Below, piece after piece: positions 27,882-35,559 of a DNA stretch of 64,000 bases. The stretch is from Pseudomonas sp. KBW05 (GTDB taxonomy: Bacteria > Pseudomonadota > Gammaproteobacteria > Pseudomonadales > Pseudomonadaceae). The translations under genes were made by a program, and so were the position numbers. A model generated the notes under the pieces. That model ran no database searches. It was not told the DNA's origin and saw only the letters and a program-made list of their open reading frames with translations. The stretch is taken from assembly GCF_003852405.1 (NCBI RefSeq), contig NZ_QAJM01000008.1, positions 102,567 through 166,566 on the forward strand. The letters run 5' to 3'. The stretch's first letter is position 1. Each line of letters begins with the position of its first letter.

Positions 27882-29939
27882 TCACACCAGCCGGAATCGT
27901 GCGGTGTTGTCACTCAAGGCCTGGCTGCCCTTGCTCAGGGTATCCGCCGCACGGTTCACCGCCCGTGCACCATCAAGCAAGCGCCCCGCCGCCTGGTCCA
28001 CTTGCTGGATATTGCCGCTCACTTCGTCCGCAGTCGCGGCCTGTTCTTCGACCGCCGTGGCGATCTGCGCCAGGGTGTCGGTGACGTTCTGCACCGCGCC
28101 GGCGATTTCGCCCAGGCGGGTGCCGAGCCCGGTGACCGACGCCGCATCGGTCAACGCTTGCTCACATGCGACGCCCATCAGGTTGACCGCCTGGCTCACC
28201 GTGGCACGCAGGCTGTCCACCGTGCTGGCGATCTGTGCGGTGGAGGCCTGGGTGCGTTGCGACAGGCTGCGCACTTCATCCGCCACCACCGCGAAGCCAC
28301 GCCCCTGCTCGCCGGCGCGGGCGGCTTCGATGGCCGCGTTGAGCGCCAGCAGGTTGGTCTGCTCGGCGATGCCCCGAATGGTGTCCACCACCGATTGAAT
28401 CTGCTGGCCCTGGTGGCTGACTTGCTCCAGGGCGTTGGCGGTGTCCGTCAGGCGCTGGTTGAGTTGCTGGATGCTGGCCGTGGTGCGTTGGCTATCACGG
28501 CTGCTGTCTTCGGCGATGCGCCGGGTCTGCTGGGCGCTGCCCGACGCTTGTTCGCAGCTACGGGCGACGCCCAGGGAGGTCGCGGCCAGTTGGGTGGCAG
28601 CGGCGGCGATCTGGCTGATTTGTTGTTGCTGGTCTTCGACTTCGTTGAGGGTGCTGCCCGATTGCGCATTGAGGGTGACCACCGCCGAGCCCAACTGCTG
28701 CGTCTCGTGGTTGACCCCCAGCAAGCTGGTGCGCAACTGCACCACCGCGACGTTCAGCGCAATGCTGATGGCCGCCAGTTCGTCACGCCCCTGCACCGCC
28801 ACTTCCACGCAGAGGTTGCCGTCACGCAGCGACTCCGCCAGCGTGGTGATGCCACTGGCGCTGCGGCGGATCGAGGCTTGCAGGCACATGAACAGGTACA
28901 GCGCCGCCAACGCCAGCAGGCTGAACGTCGCCGCCACCGGCACGATCTGCTGGAGGGAACGATCGTGGTAGTGGCCGAGGCGCGCGTCCAGGGACGTCAG
29001 CGACTGGTTGCGCAGGGCGCCCAGGCTGCCGAGCATGACATCGACACTGCCTTCGAAGGCGGAGGTGTCGAGTTTGATGGTGCCACCGAACACGCCATCG
29101 TCGAGAATCTTGAGCTGGTTATCGAGGGTTTGCAGGCTGTTGTCATACTGCGCGGTCCACGCCTCCATGCCTGCGTACTGCTTGGCCTTGAGCGACGCGG
29201 CGGCCTTGACCAACTGGTCGCGCGCGTCGCCGATGCGGCCGCGCAGGTCGCGCATCTGCAAGCGGCTTTGCAAGGTGAACTGCCCGGACGCGATAGACGA
29301 TTGCCCCACACTGGCCATGCGCCCGACACGCTCGATCAGGTCAGGGGTGTGCTGGGTGGAAATCTGCATCAGCAGGTAGGTTTCCAGCCAGGGATCGAGG
29401 ATCAGGCCAGTGTCCAGCGTCACCTGCTCGCGCAGGGTTTGCATGGCGGTCAGGGCCGAGGTGAAGCGGTCATAGCCGTCCGGCCACCAACCTACGGTGC
29501 GCAGGGATTGGGAGTCCATGCCTTTGACGGTGGCCTGCAACGCCTCGAAGCGCGCGAGGGTGTCGGCGCTGGCGTGCTGGGCTTTCAGCGACTCGCCCAG
29601 GGTTTGCAGGTTTTGCAACAGCAGCGGGTAATTGGCATCGACCTTGTCCATCGCCGCCTTCGCCGCCGGGGTGGGTGCGTGCAGGATGTCGGCGGCTTTC
29701 CAGCGCGCGGCCAGGTTGCGCTGGGCGGTCAATTGGCCGTCCAGTGCATCCAGGGCCAGCAGTTGGCGAACGCCGGACTGCTCGCTGGAGATCACCGCCA
29801 ATTTGGCGCGATAGTCCTGCCCGATCATCCACAGGCTGCCGGCCAAAGGCAGCATGAACAGGAGGAACAGGATCTGGAACTTGCGTGCAAAACCAAAACG
29901 GCCGAGCAGGCGGATACCGGGTGATAAAAAGCTGTGCAT
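27882..29939 (-). CDS. Methyl-accepting chemotaxis protein
   Basis: 685-residue inner-membrane chemoreceptor feeding CheA/CheW. TM1 at about 22-42, a large periplasmic helical sensing region at about 45-340, TM2 at about 345-365 ([20 protein letters not shown]), then a HAMP-like segment. The cytoplasmic signalling hairpin has the near-invariant tip [20 protein letters not shown] followed by [12 protein letters not shown]. It has no C-terminal CheR-binding pentapeptide. The ligand is unknown. GGAG lies upstream of the ATG. Confidence 0.94.
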
Positions 29940-30254
29940 GTCGGACCACTCCCCAAAAACGACCCATGCGGTGCACCGCTGGGCAAAGCCTTGAAATGAC
30001 TAACGGCAAAACGCCATGTCATTGATTAGCTTGGCTCTAGCAAGATACGGGCCGATGGCAGGACGCTGGAATCAGGCGGGGTGGCACGCTAAAAGTGCAC
30101 GCGTCGTGCGCGAAAATGGGGCAAAAGCACTCAGTATCGAGGGCGCATCTGTAACTAATGGCGCAACGCGTACCTGCAGTGGAATCACTTCCTGCTGATC
30201 ACGCCTTTTGCACCCGCTCAGACTGAAATCTCCTAACACCACTGGAGATTCATC
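29940..30254. other. Intergenic region between divergent chemoreceptor and M35-like peptidase
   Basis: 315 bp with no convincing gene. It carries a near copy of the ACTTCCTA motif (ACTTCCTG, 30187-30194) 61 bp before the peptidase start. I see no clear sigma-70 promoter or FliA promoter for the chemoreceptor. Confidence 0.35.
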
Positions 30255-30785
30255 ATGCCTCGTCAACTGACCAGCTCCGAAGCAAGAACCTATCGTGCAG
30301 CACGCTGGGCTGCACTGCGCTCCCTCAACTACACCATCGGCCAACTGAATGCGGGCAATGCCGCCGTCGCTCAGGTCTGGATGGGTGTCAACCACCCTAT
30401 GGACCTGCGCGAGCTGGCACGGCGCCTAGGCATTATCCATGCGGCGCTGGCCGGTATTCATCAAGCTCAGATCGTTTTTGACGACAGCACAAACTCACAC
30501 ACCAATTGGTACGCCGAGGTCAATGTGAACCTGCGCGGCGCCGCACACTCCATCACACTGGCACAGCCCTTCTTCGACGCTTCAACGTACGGTAATGACT
30601 CGCGCGCCAGCACCTTGATTCATGAAGTCAGTCATTTCCGCGATGTGCTGGACACCGACGACAACGCTGACGGGCGCGCCGCCTGCCTGCGATTGGTGCA
30701 GCAGGCGCAGCAACATGACGGTGATCTCAACAGCGTCATCACCAATGCCGATAGCTGGGCGTACCTAGTAGAAGACAGCTATTGA
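30255..30785 (+). CDS. M35-type (aspzincin) zinc metallopeptidase domain protein
   Basis: 176 residues. The zinc motif HEVSH lies at 123-127 (STLIHEVSHFRD), and a downstream Asp166 in ITNADSWAYLVED sits where aspzincins (lysine-specific metallo-endopeptidases, M35) carry their third zinc ligand. There is no signal peptide or membrane segment, so export would need a type VI or other leaderless route, or the enzyme acts inside the cell. ATG 30255 follows GGAG. A strong hairpin separates it from the next gene. The family call rests on motif spacing and is fairly secure; the role is unknown. Confidence 0.78.
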   Translation: MPRQLTSSEARTYRAARWAALRSLNYTIGQLNAGNAAVAQVWMGVNHPMDLRELARRLGIIHAALAGIHQAQIVFDDSTNSHTNWYAEVNVNLRGAAHSITLAQPFFDASTYGNDSRASTLIHEVSHFRDVLDTDDNADGRAACLRLVQQAQQHDGDLNSVITNADSWAYLVEDSY

Positions 30786-30807
30786 GCTATTACTGATGCT
30801 GCAAGGC

Positions 30808-30835
30808 AAAAAGCCTGTTTTCGAACAGGCTTTTT
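30808..30835 (+). terminator. Terminator after the M35-like peptidase gene
   Basis: A 12-bp perfect stem AAAAAGCCTGTT/AACAGGCTTTTT around a TTCG loop, with the 3' arm ending in T5. It is a strong intrinsic terminator and, being A/T-flanked on both sides, may work in both directions. Confidence 0.92.
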
Positions 30836-30860
30836 CATCACCCAGGAAAAGGAGTTGATC

Positions 30861-31325
30861 ATGGACCGTCGTTTTTTGACCGCCGCTTCACTGGCCGCAC
30901 TTTATTTGTTAGCCACCCCCGCGCACGCATTGAACACTGAAGAAGTTGAACCCCAAACGCTGAAAGACTATGCCATCACATTGAATGCCAGTGCTGGTAA
31001 CTTTCAGTGGCAGCAATTATGGAAAACCACGCGCACGGCTGGATACTTTAGCGAGCAATCGTCCACTCACTTCACCGCGCCGATGAAGCAAGTTCCCGAT
31101 CTCGTATCCACCGTACTTAGCAGCGCAACCAGTGTTAAGCCCTTCGCCTCCACTCGCGCAACCTACCGCTATGACTTCGCGGAAAAAGTGGGCCAGGTCA
31201 ACAAGGTCACCGTCACCGCACTATGCGTCGATGTGGACTGGCGTTCCCTCCCCAACGGAACCGCCGTTGATGATACAGAGAAGATGAAGACGGTCAGTTT
31301 ATTGCTGGCCAAACCCTGCCCATGA
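30861..31325 (+). CDS. Exported protein of unknown function
   Basis: 154 residues with a Sec signal peptide (MDRRFLTAASLAALYLLATPAHA). The mature part of about 130 residues is beta-prone, with Cys at CVDVDW and near the end (KPCP), possibly one disulfide. The ATG at 30861 has AAAAGGAG upstream; a TTG two codons earlier is less likely. I recognise no family. It has its own terminators on both sides, so it is a single-gene unit next to the peptidase and lysozyme genes. Confidence 0.7.
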   Translation: MDRRFLTAASLAALYLLATPAHALNTEEVEPQTLKDYAITLNASAGNFQWQQLWKTTRTAGYFSEQSSTHFTAPMKQVPDLVSTVLSSATSVKPFASTRATYRYDFAEKVGQVNKVTVTALCVDVDWRSLPNGTAVDDTEKMKTVSLLLAKPCP

Positions 31326-31330
31326 TGCAA

Positions 31331-31361
31331 ACAGCCACCCGAGGCAATCTCGGGTGGCTGT
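31331..31361. terminator. Hairpin between convergent exported-protein and lysozyme genes
   Basis: A 13-bp perfect stem ACAGCCACCCGAG/CTCGGGTGGCTGT with a 5-base loop, between the two stop codons. It probably ends both transcripts. Confidence 0.8.
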
Positions 31362-31371
31362 ATCTTTACCG

Positions 31372-31911
31372 TTACAACGCACTCGCCAACAAATCCGCTT
31401 CCTTGCAACGGCGGGTGGAATAGCGGTCACCAAAATTGCGCAAATTACTTTCTGCGGCCTTCCAGTCCCCCGCCACCACTTGCGCCCAGAACTTTGGAGT
31501 GCGAATGGCGAGGTTGCCATATTGGAAGGCAACTGAAGCGATCACCGTCTGCATCGGTGCCGGCAATGCATCAAACGGGCGCCCGGCAGCTTTGCTGTAG
31601 TCGCTGCTCAAGCGTGCGATAAAGGGCGCCTTGTAAGCCTCGTCAATCCTGCATGCATCGTCTGCGCTGACGTTCAGCGGCAGCGTTTGCAAGCGCGCTA
31701 CGGCCTTCGCACCGATCAGGCCAAGGTAAGGTGCAAGTCGCTCAGCAAGGTCTTTGGGCAGCATATCCAGATTTTTCTGCTGCCCCAGATCAAAGCCTGT
31801 GCCTATGGTGACCCCGCTCCTGCTGTGTTCCGGGTCCGGCACATAACCGCGTGTGGCCGGCCCACCTTCGAGCCTGGCAATAAATGCCATATCAATCGAA
31901 TGACTGGACAT
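31372..31911 (-). CDS. Pesticin/T4-lysozyme-like muramidase
   Basis: 179 residues that look like a stand-alone catalytic domain. The start FIARLEGGPATRGYVP followed by SGVTIGTGFDLGQQ matches the pesticin-type lysozyme fold: Glu15 would be the acid, with Thr35 and Asp41 in the positions of the T4 lysozyme Thr/Asp pair. The C-terminal part (VIASVAFQYGNLAIRTPKFW, then NLRNFGDRYSTRRCKEADLL) is typical of phage-type lysozymes. There is no signal peptide, receptor-binding domain or adjacent holin. It is divergent from the Mor-like regulator across a gap with repeated motifs, which probably controls it. It cleaves peptidoglycan by family. Confidence 0.82.
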   Translation of the reverse strand: MSSHSIDMAFIARLEGGPATRGYVPDPEHSRSGVTIGTGFDLGQQKNLDMLPKDLAERLAPYLGLIGAKAVARLQTLPLNVSADDACRIDEAYKAPFIARLSSDYSKAAGRPFDALPAPMQTVIASVAFQYGNLAIRTPKFWAQVVAGDWKAAESNLRNFGDRYSTRRCKEADLLASAL

Positions 31912-31972
31912 GGGTAGTTCCCTCTTGGTTTAGGAAACTCAAGTCCATCACTCAGGCGGGATCATCTTCAGA

Positions 31973-32037
31973 AGGTAAAACTTCCCTACTTTCATAGGTA
32001 AAGTTTCCTACTTATTGTCGGCGTTCATTACTTCCTA
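31973..32037. promoter_or_regulatory. Repeated operator-like motifs between lysozyme and Mor-like genes
   Basis: AGGTAAAACTTCCCTACTTT (from 31973) is repeated as AGGTAAAGTTTCCTACTTAT (from 31996), a direct repeat with a 23-bp period, about two helical turns. A third TTCCTA site follows at 32032 inside ACTTCCTA (32030-32037). An inverted version (TAGGAAAC, 31931-31938) lies on the lysozyme side. The arrangement resembles an operator for a dimeric activator. Confidence 0.55.
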
Positions 32038-32074
32038 AGCTCTGACCAGCTCTCACGCCAAGGAGGTAAGACCG

Positions 32075-32458
32075 ATGGAACCGATCGACCTGGGACACAT
32101 TGATGTCCACCAACTCCCCCACTCCCTTCAGGTGTTGGTTGCCTGTATCGGTTTGGAAGATGCTTTCCGCCTGACGTGCGTGTATGGCGGCCGCCCTAAA
32201 TACATTCCAAAACAGGTTCAACGCACTTCGTTGGCGCTGATCTTGTCAACGGAATCACTACAAGCGCTGATCAATGATTTCGCGGGTATTGCTTTGGAAA
32301 TACCGAAGTCCGACCATTTTTTTCGGCAGATCCGTAATCAACATATTCAAATGGGTATTTCCAACGGTGTATCGCGAAGTGTATTGGCCGAAAAGTATGG
32401 GTTGAGCCTGCGGCAGATCGCCAATATCCGGCGCCAGGAAACTTGTCTTCATCGGTAA
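32075..32458 (+). CDS. Mor-family transcriptional activator
   Basis: 127 residues. The middle part GGRPKYIPKQ resembles the GG..-YIPK turn of phage Mu Mor proteins. The C-terminus SVLAEKYGLSLRQIANIRRQ is a helix-turn-helix like that of Mor/C activators. A very strong Shine-Dalgarno (AAGGAGGT) precedes the ATG. It lies between the divergent lysozyme gene and the DUF2589 pair. No Mu-like transposase, capsid or tail genes are nearby, so it is either a domesticated regulator or part of a small accessory module. Confidence 0.8.
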   Translation: MEPIDLGHIDVHQLPHSLQVLVACIGLEDAFRLTCVYGGRPKYIPKQVQRTSLALILSTESLQALINDFAGIALEIPKSDHFFRQIRNQHIQMGISNGVSRSVLAEKYGLSLRQIANIRRQETCLHR

Positions 32459-32540
32459 TTACTTCCTACTGAATCAGAAAGTTCAGCATGGATAGATTGA
32501 AGTTGCGCACTTTCGCGCACTCACGATAAGGAAATTAGAC

Positions 32541-33191
32541 ATGGCAGATATTGATAAAGGTCTCATTGGAGGCGTGATAGCCGCCCTTCCTCTGGACAAG
32601 ATGATCACTGGCCCGCTGATGGCAATGATTCAGGCACAAGTCGCTGCGAGCAAAGCCTATGCGGACTTCCTCATGGGCGTGTGCATCCAGGACGGCAAGG
32701 CCGTTTCGGTGCAGTTCGACTACGACGAAACCCTGGTTGATGAACAAGGTGTCTACAAGGGCACAGTCAGCAAGTCCATGCGCATTCCGCTGCTGGCCGC
32801 CATCAGCCACCCCAACATCACCATCCAAGAAGGCAGCATCGAGTTCGAGCTGACCATCACCCAGATGGCCGAGGACAAAAGCTCCACTGATGTTTCCGGT
32901 GGCTTTGACGCCAAAATGGGCTGGGGCCCGTTCAGCGTGACCGTGAAAGGCTCCGCCAGCCACAAGTCCAGCCAGACCCGCAAGACCGACACCCGCGCAC
33001 GCTACGAAATCAAGACCAAAATCGTGCGTCAGGACCCACCGGAAGCGCTGATGCGCGTCATCGACTTCCTCACCGATGCAGCGACCAAACCGGTCATGCT
33101 GCCAAACGCCACTGCAACCAGCCCGACGGAACTGCCAAAAGCAGGGGTACTGCCTTTGCCTGACGCCAAGCCTGCGGAAAAAACCAAGTAA
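32541..33191 (+). CDS. DUF2589 domain protein (first of a tandem pair)
   Basis: 216 residues, cytoplasmic by sequence. After a helical start (MADIDKGLIGGVIAALPLDK...MIQAQVAASKAYADFL) comes a beta-rich core (SMRIPLLAAISHPNITIQEG, then IEFELTITQM), then the segment QDPPEALMRVIDFLTDAA and a Pro/Ala-rich, Lys-ended tail. This matches DUF2589, a family without known function. The motif ACTTCCTA stands 73 bp before the ATG. It is 56 bp upstream of a paralogue with the same layout. Role unknown; possible co-assembly with the paralogue is inference. Confidence 0.82.
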   Translation: MADIDKGLIGGVIAALPLDKMITGPLMAMIQAQVAASKAYADFLMGVCIQDGKAVSVQFDYDETLVDEQGVYKGTVSKSMRIPLLAAISHPNITIQEGSIEFELTITQMAEDKSSTDVSGGFDAKMGWGPFSVTVKGSASHKSSQTRKTDTRARYEIKTKIVRQDPPEALMRVIDFLTDAATKPVMLPNATATSPTELPKAGVLPLPDAKPAEKTK

Positions 33192-33199
33192 CGCCAACC

Positions 33200-33219
33200 G
33201 CCCCGCCTCACGGCGGGGC
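33200..33219 (+). other. GC hairpin between the two DUF2589 genes
   Basis: GCCCCGCC/GGCGGGGC, 8-bp stem with a 4-base loop and no T-run. It is more likely an mRNA stability or partial-attenuation element than a full terminator. Confidence 0.5.
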
Positions 33220-33247
33220 AACCCACTCGACCTGAAAGGAATCCACC

Positions 33248-33811
33248 ATGGCATTTTTCTCACGCCCCAAGGAACCCATGTCGGCCAGTGACTTGAGCCA
33301 CATCACCCGCGGGTTGCACCAGGCAGCAGCGGCCACGCACAACCTGATCGCCCAGCAATACATCGCCTTGTTCGACCAATTCTTCGATTACAACGTTGAA
33401 GACCTGGGCACGCCGATGAAGGCCAAGATGGTCGATATCGCCCTGACCGAGGGCCATACCATCACCGTACCGCTGATCGCACTGGTGGCCCCCAAGGGTT
33501 TGGCGCTGCACAAAATGGATGTAGACCTGTCGGTAAAGATGCACAGCACCGAAGTGCAGAAGGCCAGCCACGACTTGGAAAATGGCGACCTGCAGAGTGA
33601 GAAGTTTTTTGTGACCTTCGGCACCACCAAGCGCGAAGGCCAGGAGCGTGATCCCGACGAAGTGCAGATCCGCATCGAATTCAAGGCCTGCGAACCACCG
33701 GAGGCGATCAACCGCATCATCGAGGAATACACCAACCTGATCAGCCCACTGGCTCACGCCCCCGCCAAACCGCCCACTGCCGAACAGGAGCCTTCAGACT
33801 TCGCGCCCTGA
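33248..33811 (+). CDS. DUF2589 domain protein (second of a tandem pair)
   Basis: 187 residues. It shares the layout of the upstream paralogue: helical N-terminus (LHQAAAATHNLIAQQYIALFDQF), a beta region with ITVPLIALVAPKGLALHKMD, and the helix CEPPEAINRIIEEYTNLISP aligned with the PPEALMRVIDFL of its neighbour. AAAGGA precedes the ATG. Sequence identity between the two looks low, which suggests distinct roles in a heteromeric assembly; function unknown. Confidence 0.8.
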   Translation: MAFFSRPKEPMSASDLSHITRGLHQAAAATHNLIAQQYIALFDQFFDYNVEDLGTPMKAKMVDIALTEGHTITVPLIALVAPKGLALHKMDVDLSVKMHSTEVQKASHDLENGDLQSEKFFVTFGTTKREGQERDPDEVQIRIEFKACEPPEAINRIIEEYTNLISPLAHAPAKPPTAEQEPSDFAP

Positions 33812-33827
33812 CGGCAATCCTGAGGGC

Positions 33828-34118
33828 TTATTTGCCCATCTTGTACCGGTCAAAATTGTTGATGTGATCATCCAGATTATCCTCAAGCATCATCCGGTAC
33901 TGATCGCAGAAATACTTCAACATCGCCTCCCGCGCCTCGGCCATTTCCGCGCCGGACTTGAAGTTGCGCGCACTGGCCCAGGCATTGAAGCGGGTGGTGC
34001 CAAACATCATCGAGGCGCTGACCTGGCCGAGGTTTTCCTCAGCCTTGAGCTGCTCGTTGGACAGTTCGATGTGCGCATCTGCGCGGTCGTAAAAAGCTTG
34101 GTCGGTGGCATCTGCCAT
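33828..34118 (-). CDS. DUF3144 domain protein
   Basis: 96 residues, acidic and helical, ending INNFDRYKMGK. The segments FYDRADAHIELSNEQL and SMMFGTTRFNAWASA match DUF3144, a small family common in gammaproteobacteria with no known function. AAGGA lies before the ATG. Convergent with the DUF2589 pair and upstream of trmK on the same strand. Confidence 0.82.
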   Translation of the reverse strand: MADATDQAFYDRADAHIELSNEQLKAEENLGQVSASMMFGTTRFNAWASARNFKSGAEMAEAREAMLKYFCDQYRMMLEDNLDDHINNFDRYKMGK

Positions 34119-34147
34119 TGCGGGAATCCTTATTGAATAACGGTCTG

Positions 34148-34843
34148 TCAGGCCAGCAGCGCGGTGATCCAGCGGGCCTGTTGGGCGATCTCTTGTAGCG
34201 TCGCCTCGGGCACCGCCTGGCGCGCCTGTTCAAGGCTGGCAAGGGTCTTCTGTTTCTGGCGCAGCATGCGTTGCCACTTGGCCAAAAATGCCGGGCTGCG
34301 CGCCTGCATTTGCAGTGGGCCAAAGTACAGTTGCTCGGCACTGTACTGCACCGGCTCGCTGCGCTCAGCGACGATGATTTCGTAGTAGAAACGGTTTTCG
34401 TGCAGCAACTCTTCAGTGAGGATGGCGTAGCCGTTGTCCATCAACCATTGGCGCAACGGTTGCTCGCCGCCGTTGGGTTGCAGGATCAGGCGCTCCTGGC
34501 CACTGAGGTACGCCTTGCCGCTGTCGAGGATATCGCGGATGGTCTCGCCGCCCATGCCGCAGATGCTGATTGCACTGATGCGGTCTTGCGCTTCGATGGC
34601 CGCCAAGCCGTTGGCCAGGCGCACCGTGACGTGCTGCTCCAGGCCGTTGTCACGCACCGTGCGTAGGGCCGCATGAAACGGCGTGGTCGCCACCTCACCG
34701 GCCACCGCCGCGCTGATCGCGCCCCGGCGCAGCAAGGCCACCGGCAAGTAGCCGTGATCGGAGCCAATATCGGCCAGGCGCGCGCCCAGAGGCACGTTTG
34801 CCGCCACGCGCTCCAGGCGCGCGGATAAAGTGTGTTCGTTCAA
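34148..34843 (-). CDS. trmK: tRNA (adenine(22)-N1)-methyltransferase
   Basis: 231 residues of the class I methyltransferase fold, methylating N1 of A22 in tRNAs by family. SAM-binding motif LADIGSDHGYLPVALL is at about 23-38; the catalytic-loop region ICGMGGETIRDIL is at about 93-106, followed by LILQPNGGEQPLRQWL. The start appears to be a TTG at 34843; no ATG or GTG nearby gives the family N-terminus NEHTLSARLERVA. It lies 5 bp from the GntR regulator, so the two are probably co-transcribed. Confidence 0.88.
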   Translation of the reverse strand: MNEHTLSARLERVAANVPLGARLADIGSDHGYLPVALLRRGAISAAVAGEVATTPFHAALRTVRDNGLEQHVTVRLANGLAAIEAQDRISAISICGMGGETIRDILDSGKAYLSGQERLILQPNGGEQPLRQWLMDNGYAILTEELLHENRFYYEIIVAERSEPVQYSAEQLYFGPLQMQARSPAFLAKWQRMLRQKQKTLASLEQARQAVPEATLQEIAQQARWITALLA

Positions 34844-34848
34844 CTGCC

Positions 34849-35559
34849 CTACTCTCCCGAAAAACGATCGCGGCTATTGGTCAAGTGCAGCACCATCGCG
34901 GCGCGTGCAGCGTCCGGGTCCTGGCGCTTGATCGCGTTGAAGATCGCCTCATGCTCCAGGTGCGCCAGTTGCCCCAATTGGGCGAAGTCCGCGCCACCCC
35001 GTTCGGCGGCCTTGACCTGAGTGCGCGGAATCATCGCAGTTCCCAGGTGCAGCATGATTTCGCTGAAGAAAGTATTGCCGGTGGCTTCGGCGATCAATTG
35101 GTGGAAGCGTTTGTCTGCTTCCACGCAACTGTCGTTGTTGGCCAGGGAGGCCTGGTAGTCGCTCAGCACTTCGCGCATTCGCGCCAATTGCGCGTCGCTG
35201 CGGCGTTGGGCGGCCAGCGCCACGGCCTGCACCTCCAGGCCCAGGCGCAACTCCAGCATGCTGCGCACGCTGGCGAGCGTGTCCACATGCAGGCGCAGCC
35301 CGGACTGCGCTTGCGGCGCCAGCACAAAGGTGCCGATGCCGTGGCGCGTCTCCACCAACCCCGACGCCTGCAACTTGGACAGTGCCTCGCGCACCACGGT
35401 GCGGCTGACACCATGCTCGGCCACGATGGTGGATTCGGACGGCAATTTTTCACCGGGCTGCAACTGCCCGAGCAGGATGCGCTGGGTCAGCACTTCAACC
35501 ACACCTTGGGCGAGGTTGCTGGAGCGTTTACGCACAGGAGGCGCGCTTTCAATGGGCAT
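34849..35559 (-). CDS. FadR-subfamily GntR regulator of glucarate use
   Basis: 236 residues. N-terminal winged HTH (about 15-80, with GEKLPSESTIVAEHGVSRTVVREALSKL) and a C-terminal all-helical FCD ligand domain (about 100-230, with His residues in CVEADKRFHQLIAEATGNTFF for metal/ligand binding). ATG 35559 was chosen over an upstream TTG/ATG start as the family-like N-terminus. It is divergent from the glucarate transporter/dehydratase operon and should repress it until the sugar acid binds. Confidence 0.9.
   Translation of the reverse strand: MPIESAPPVRKRSSNLAQGVVEVLTQRILLGQLQPGEKLPSESTIVAEHGVSRTVVREALSKLQASGLVETRHGIGTFVLAPQAQSGLRLHVDTLASVRSMLELRLGLEVQAVALAAQRRSDAQLARMREVLSDYQASLANNDSCVEADKRFHQLIAEATGNTFFSEIMLHLGTAMIPRTQVKAAERGGADFAQLGQLAHLEHEAIFNAIKRQDPDAARAAMVLHLTNSRDRFSGE

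Follow-up and report, generated by a model that had tools for sequence, protein, structure and literature searches.

Six genes of the cassette

Positions 30255 to 33811 of a 64,000-nucleotide stretch of the Pseudomonas sp. KBW05 genome (the whole of which is called the window here) carry a cassette of six genes encoding a zinc peptidase, a small exported protein, a lysozyme, a Mor-like activator, and two DUF2589 proteins. The open reading frames, together with Pfam matches for five of the six genes, confirmed the identities and order given in the initial annotation, including the position of the Mor-like gene between the divergent lysozyme gene and the DUF2589 pair. The first gene (30255..30785, plus strand) encodes a leaderless zinc metallopeptidase of the Aspzincin_M35 family (PF14521, E 1.5e-13), with an HExxH motif recognized by eye. 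A hairpin and T run 3' of this gene (30808..30835, plus strand), also found by eye and absent from the list produced by our terminator scan, is a probable terminator. The small exported protein follows (30861..31325, plus strand; 154 amino acids, with the start taken as the ATG at 30861). Its single Pfam match is at chance level (E 0.14), and its N-terminus resembles a signal peptide by eye and by hydropathy.

The lysozyme gene (31372..31911, minus strand) is divergent from mor and encodes a stand-alone pesticin/T4-type enzyme of 179 amino acids (Pesticin, PF16754, E 1.7e-44). The Pesticin domain occupies residues 6-151 and leaves no space for a second domain, and the protein carries no export signal (highest 19-residue hydropathy 0.99). 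We considered and rejected a pesticin bacteriocin, since this domain span lacks the receptor-binding and translocation part. One further phage-type lysozyme (PF00959) is encoded elsewhere in the same genome. The Mor/C-family transcription activator (PF08765; 32075..32458, plus strand) scored 34.1 bits against a curated cut-off of 24.9, falls in the PHROGs family phrog_836 ("late transcriptional activator", E 2.2e-24), and is the sole Mor detected in its genome at E 0.001. DUF2589 protein A (32541..33191, plus strand; PF11655, E 2.9e-23) and protein B (33248..33811, plus strand; PF11655, E 7.2e-16) reached 83.4 and 59.3 bits, respectively, against a cut-off of 23. They are distant paralogues, and the comparison of the two family profiles gave a 98.2% probability of relationship.

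None of the six proteins matched capsid, tail, holin, or transposase families in Pfam, NCBIfam, or PHROGs, as the initial annotation had also claimed. Profiles detected no Mu-like prophage genes among the six genes, the two right-hand genes, and the receptor gene on the left; the wider flanks and the relatives were checked for prophage genes by eye from gene calls. Secretion-system families were absent above cut-off among the six proteins (Pfam), and the defence-system profiles picked up just the Mor protein, weakly (0.053). Rfam had no match in positions 29000-35000, and a scan for consensus promoters and terminators showed no excess over shuffled sequences.

Conservation of the cassette and a putative Mor box

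Genome comparison identifies an accessory island here. The cassette is missing from a relative (G017), in which the same flanks, a chemotaxis receptor gene and a DUF3144 gene, stand about 355 bp apart; DNA homology between the two genomes ends near 30155 and restarts at 33842. The G+C content of the cassette genes is 50-58%, compared with 61% for the window. Gene calls placed the lysozyme-bearing block in six genomes at three chromosomal settings, one shared by G000, G067, and G460, another by G061 and G106 (on the downstream side), and a third in G109, with flank names such as GlnS and PpiB assigned by eye. A plain version adjoining tamB provides a fourth setting. Because the block recurs in other genomes and is missing from G017, the grouping of these genes is more than chance. 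We saw no recombinase next to the block. The empty site in G017 (L227:5881-6033) has a short inverted repeat, REP-like by eye, as a possible landing place.

The genus was sampled with 120 genomes, KBW05 included, and 33 regions were taken for gene calling with a custom script. DUF2589 was found in 19 of these genomes, this Mor in 31, and this lysozyme in 5. A Mor-linked DUF2589 pair was present in 17 of the 31 Mor loci, directly after mor in 16 and separated from it in G103; one of the 17, G080, has DUF2589 genes that appear disrupted. A different DUF2589 set, located away from Mor, is carried by two further genomes, G102 and G110. The gene for the small exported protein was found at 16 of the 17 Mor loci with DUF2589 and at 1 of the 14 others, which lack an intact pair (Fisher p 9e-7, with relatedness ignored and with G103, locus L084, counted as DUF2589-positive by hand, its pair lying about 33 kb off on the same contig). 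For the most part, then, the small gene occurs where DUF2589 does and is missing where DUF2589 is missing, and the lysozyme and peptidase are additions. As read from these loci, the constant core consists of Mor, the small exported protein, and the DUF2589 pair, and the lysozyme and peptidase are accessory members.

The lysozyme was present in 5 of the 17 loci with a Mor-linked pair. The other 12 are of the plain type, termed tam type here, which adjoins TamB and TamA genes (identified with Pfam at one locus, L068, with which the remaining loci group). The tam-type loci and those of the six cassettes share a common descent, and their counts are not independent. Of the six lysozyme-bearing cassettes, three begin with an M35 peptidase gene (G067 and G460 have it at the position seen in the window) and two, G061 among them, with a gene for an M91-like peptidase; in G109, the first gene is the small gene. 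The tested M91-like member matched at E 0.002, below the family cut-off, and the G106 copy lacks HExxH by eye. Because the genes co-occur in other genomes of the genus, the single module that had been proposed for them stands by neighbourhood, but the lysozyme and peptidase are not constant parts of it.

In thirteen genomes (L085-L088, L090-L098), Mor persists although the small gene and an intact Mor-linked DUF2589 are both missing; in 12 of these, TamB-type genes lie alongside. A DUF2589 remnant is still present in L088 and in L089, the latter of which has the small gene. These Mor-only loci suggest that loss occurred repeatedly and that Mor may have a further role. The separated pair of G103 lies on contig C150 (68.7-102.1 kb; L231, L232), where about 33 kb stand between mor and the DUF2589 genes and mor has a stop codon within its matched stretch. 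The right end of this insertion has family matches to a TnsA-like protein (just above cut-off) and a TniB/TnsC-type ATPase, and two more genes encode an integrase-core match below cut-off and a protein that is TniQ-like by eye. The insertion is probably a Tn7-like element.

The promoters of the first gene, mor, and DUF2589 A share a conserved box, which we treat as a putative Mor site. In the window, it is found on the plus strand as TTCCTGCTGAT (30189..30199), 66 bp before the peptidase start codon, and as TTCCTACTGAA (32463..32473), 78 bp before DUF2589 A. The intergenic region common to lysozyme and mor contains three TTCC(Y)TA repeats on the plus strand (31982..32039, with copies at 31982, 32005, and 32032), and the copy at 32005 corresponds to the box TTCCTACTTAT (plus strand), at -70 of mor. 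Across the six cassettes, the core TTCCYRCT was present in 17 of 18 promoters at -66 to -78, the sole exception being that of the degenerate M91-like gene of G106. The full TTCCYRCTGA was present in 14 of 18, with the GA end missing from the mor promoters of G000, G067, and G106. Offsets for the first gene were -66, -66, -67, -78, and -66 (-66/-67 for M35 in G067/G460 and -78 for the M91-like gene of G061), those for mor were -70 to -74, and those for DUF2589 A were -75 to -78 in all six cassettes. The box is retained across exchange of the first gene (M35, M91-like, or the small gene).

A partly independent check came from the tam-type loci, where the core box lay at -80 to -60 of the small gene in 9 of 12 (500 shuffles: mean 0.01, maximum 1); these 12 are drawn from 13 tam-type loci with the small gene, which is uncalled in L077. 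The TTCC(Y)TA repeat occurred within 200 bp before mor in 15 of 26 tam-type loci, with or without DUF2589, against 1.2 expected, at other offsets. On the plus strand of the window, TTCC(C/T)TA with one optional base has 7 copies, 4 of them in the mor promoter and the gap between mor and DUF2589; on the minus strand, 2 of 7 copies lie in this region. Exact copies of CTTCCTRCTGAW in the KBW05 genome number 14 (11 inside genes and 3 intergenic), and genome-wide only the peptidase and DUF2589 copies lie within 80 bp before a start codon. Extra copies of the box were found inside genes in two cassettes (the small gene in L079, and mor, on the opposite strand, in L080).

Aligned sites show a weak TAnnnT about 20 bp downstream, which places the box at about the position of a -35 element. 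The inner TTC/GAA arms of a possible dyad were complete in 10 of the 18 sites of this box. These observations support shared control of the peptidase, mor, and DUF2589 units, presumably by Mor, which would bind the putative box. For comparison, the Pm promoter of phage Mu has a -10 but no -35 element, and the Mor dimer binds a 16-bp dyad element, according to the accessible part of PMC4390567.

DUF2589 pairs and wall hydrolases in other bacteria

DUF2589 was detected in 9 of 398 genomes of the phylum, eight of which had two matches. A wider set consisted of the best 80 of 278 relatives in named-species genomes (10 from Pseudomonas, with near relatives over-represented). Both A and B were called in 74 of these 80 loci, and a third small protein, C, in 77. 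Among 124 loci with an A/B cluster, C was present in 86 and a small secreted protein in 51. The small exported protein of the window was considered as a counterpart of this small secreted protein and rejected (profile comparison 0.3%).

Of the 80 loci, 57 had a wall-hydrolase-type gene no more than six genes away from the DUF2589 block; they represent 31 of 46 genera or unnamed groups (genus labels were taken from record titles). The family could be named in 48 of the 57: GH19 (25), GH108 (19), VgrG3-like (2), Muramidase (1), and phage lysozyme (1). Two others were weaker, L150 being below both Pfam cut-offs and L206 having a glycoside-hydrolase-like domain. Representatives checked with Pfam, some of them outside the 80, included GH19, GH108, phage lysozyme, Amidase_3, an Rv2525c-type hydrolase-like domain, Muramidase (PF11860, two loci), and a VgrG3-like C-terminal domain with LysM (two loci); the window adds Pesticin. 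An M15-type enzyme at L120, also outside the 80, was assigned by eye and had no Pfam match.

By distance from DUF2589 (L114-L217), hydrolases accounted for 50 of the 237 immediate neighbours (distance 1), 23 of 750 genes at distances 2-5, and 0 of 394 at distances of 6 or more; this zero is biased towards the link because the hydrolase profiles were seeded from genes near DUF2589. A hydrophobic N-terminus was absent in 72 of 73 wall-hydrolase-type proteins (one of the 73, at L121, has a gene call that starts too late), a trait shared with phage endolysins, and 70 of 73 were encoded on the strand of A. The same measure found a hydrophobic N-terminus in 39 of the 51 small secreted proteins. As judged from these neighbourhoods, DUF2589 pairs accompany leaderless wall hydrolases across a wide range of bacteria, which is the part that is new for a specialist. 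A holin-family gene was present in nine loci, in cassettes with GH108 (the tested member matched phrog_2359, E 3.2e-12). Regulators beside the DUF2589 sets vary, the tested members being AraC-type (L134), a LuxR-type response regulator (L207), and OmpR-type (L162).

Other enzymes were also seen beside DUF2589. Seven loci with no recognized hydrolase (L149, L151, L154, L156-L159; mostly sphingomonad by title) had an astacin-type zinc peptidase gene in its place, a call made with Pfam on one cluster member, L149. A secreted EndoU nuclease gene lies beside the sets of L142, which is likewise hydrolase-less, and L082, where the small gene after EndoU could, by its position, be an antidote.

Outside the genus, two Vibrio plasmids typed as non-mobilizable (L215, L216) combine DUF2589 A, B, and C with a gene of the Mor family above cut-off, which lies directly after C in one and four genes after C in the other. 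In the more distant G280, a weak Mor-like match (18.4 bits, below cut-off) immediately precedes A, B, and a GH19-grouped gene. These cases suggest repeated pairing of Mor and DUF2589. No Mor relatives were found in viral contigs. DUF2589 had 12 viral-contig matches, nine of which (L125-L133, uncultivated phages) carry the A/B pair shortly before a portal-grouped gene, with the portal and head-protein profile matches checked in L127. In these nine loci, a neighbouring gene encodes a coiled-coil protein that, as judged by eye and hydropathy, spans the membrane once at its C-terminus, and in seven of them a small protein was taken by eye for a hydrolase and had no Pfam family match. The three other viral contigs have two GH24 lysozymes around the A/B pair. 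A search of phage records for DUF2589 returned one 25% match, on a 4-kb fragment. A phage origin of the A/B pair is possible, and is put no higher because the pair is rare in phage records.

Searches for the identity of the DUF2589 proteins gave few leads. A sequence search of solved structures with both DUF2589 profiles returned one chance match (E 0.98), and Foldseek searches of the models for A (mean pLDDT 62.5) and B (pLDDT 73.7) against the PDB returned nothing at E 0.001 or better. Against viral models, A matched one unnamed protein (9.4e-8, 32% identical) that is perhaps of the same family. In the literature, a full-text search poor in subscription papers and preprints turned up one passing mention of DUF2589, in the accessible part of PMC3949148. 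Searches for Mor with lysozyme and DUF2589, or for a Mor activator with Pseudomonas, returned only phage or prophage work by title.

A candidate lysis or release cassette and its alternatives

The likeliest of the readings that we weighed is a lytic one, in which the genes form a movable, activator-controlled lysis or release cassette, and we give this about as much credence as doubt. It builds on the conserved gene set, the box, the joint occurrence of the small gene and DUF2589, and the link between DUF2589 and leaderless hydrolases. The Mor-type activator would bind the box, at about the -35 position, and switch on together the small exported protein, DUF2589 A and B, and, in this branch, the leaderless lysozyme and zinc peptidase. 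DUF2589 A and B would act at the cell envelope and let the signal-less lysozyme reach the wall; the cell would then open, and cytoplasmic contents, including the leaderless peptidase, would get out. The membrane action of DUF2589 and the lytic outcome are both steps that we infer. A broader proposal, possible but doubtful in our estimation, is that DUF2589 A and B, often with C, form the core of a widespread and undescribed exit device for leaderless wall hydrolases, and sometimes peptidases, that does the work of a holin and that in this genus has been placed under a domesticated Mor-type activator by way of its own box.

Several observations weigh against a lysis or release cassette. The window cassette has no match to a holin family, and all six of its proteins score below 1.6 in 19-residue hydropathy, with DUF2589 A at 1.5 for its highest segment, below the usual score for a membrane span. 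Spanins had no family match among the six proteins in general profile scans, which included no search aimed at spanins. The models of A and B combine a long helix with beta strands at low to middling confidence and have no solved relative. In the regions retrieved for the 12 tam-type pairs, none of 11 hydrolase profiles found a match. In the wider set, a wall hydrolase was not found in 23 of the 80 loci, some of which have short flanks, and in 7 of the 57 positive loci only a peptidoglycan-binding domain was recognized, the rest of the protein matching no family (one full-length member tested). The box was defined after the sequence had been viewed, and three of the six mor promoters lack its GA end. 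The archaeon Archaeoglobus has no murein. DUF2589-related genes have been reported from this organism, according to the accessible part of PMC3949148.

The archaeal occurrence would suit a different role, unlikely in our judgement, in which DUF2589 builds or services an envelope structure and the wall hydrolases open space for it locally without lysing the cell. Core loci that sit beside tamB and tamA (Pfam on one locus) without a lysozyme, and the combination of two paralogues with a small exported partner, also fit such a role. Wall cutters that serve assembly are normally exported, however, and 72 of the 73 hydrolases lack a hydrophobic N-terminus; they also come from unrelated families, as endolysins do, and nine loci include a holin-family gene (one member matched phrog_2359).

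We consider it distinctly unlikely that the lysozyme and peptidase serve to attack other cells, reaching them by some secretion route, with the small exported protein protecting the maker. M35 and M91-like zinc peptidases and pesticin-type lysozymes do occur in toxins, and EndoU nuclease genes adjoin other DUF2589 cassettes (L142, L082). Against this, the lysozyme has no second domain, no secretion-system family was above cut-off among the six genes, and the small protein is present in 12 tam-type DUF2589 loci without the lysozyme and absent from G106, which has it. The same distribution led us to reject lysozyme immunity as the function of the small protein. The initial annotation had proposed a domesticated, activator-controlled module that was either lytic or antagonistic. 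Its activator-controlled part gains from the box that links the peptidase, Mor, and DUF2589 units, but its antagonistic half is weakened because the small protein is unlike a lysozyme immunity protein. A decaying prophage remnant, with unrelated cargo genes together by accident, is very improbable: the Mor family, the phage-type lysozyme, the G+C content of 50-58% versus 61%, and the empty site in a relative would all be expected of one, but six genomes retain the block, at three chromosomal settings (a fourth if the tam type is counted), its boxes stand at fixed offsets, and the small gene and DUF2589 are present or absent together.

DUF2589, a family without an assigned function, gains a testable role here, since its pairs track leaderless cell-wall enzymes of unrelated families. 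By record titles, its range includes Pseudomonas, Xanthomonas, Luteibacter, Massilia, Azospirillum, Desulfovibrio, Nannocystis, and Granulicella, as well as uncultivated phages. The recurrence of the pairing in many unrelated bacteria suggests an undescribed way of opening the cell from within, and the defined promoter box and minimal cassette offer a direct test bed for activator control and lysis.

Comparison with known systems places the cassette near several of them. It shares the family of its catalytic domain (PF16754) with pesticin-type bacteriocins, but has no receptor-binding or translocation part. In explosive cell lysis, Pseudomonas aeruginosa reportedly uses a chromosomal phage-type endolysin, as the cassette may do, and that endolysin is said to belong to the pyocin cluster; the cassette, in contrast, stands apart from the pyocin cluster and has DUF2589. 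In phage Mu, transcription from the middle promoter is driven by Mor and that from the lys promoter by the related protein C, as described in the accessible parts of PMC4390567 and PMC4461284. The cassette resembles this regulation in its Mor-family activator and in a box near the -35 position, but no Mu-like prophage genes were seen and the putative box has its own sequence. Parallels also exist to host-encoded phage-type lysis cassettes and to type 10 secretion as described for Yersinia entomophaga in the accessible part of PMC10847048: a leaderless wall hydrolase and a regulator lie together in a bacterial genome, with a cytoplasmic protein nearby that lacks an export signal. The window lysozyme is a leaderless endolysin of the kind found in these systems, but where they have a holin, the cassette has no recognized one and instead encodes DUF2589 A and B and the small exported protein.

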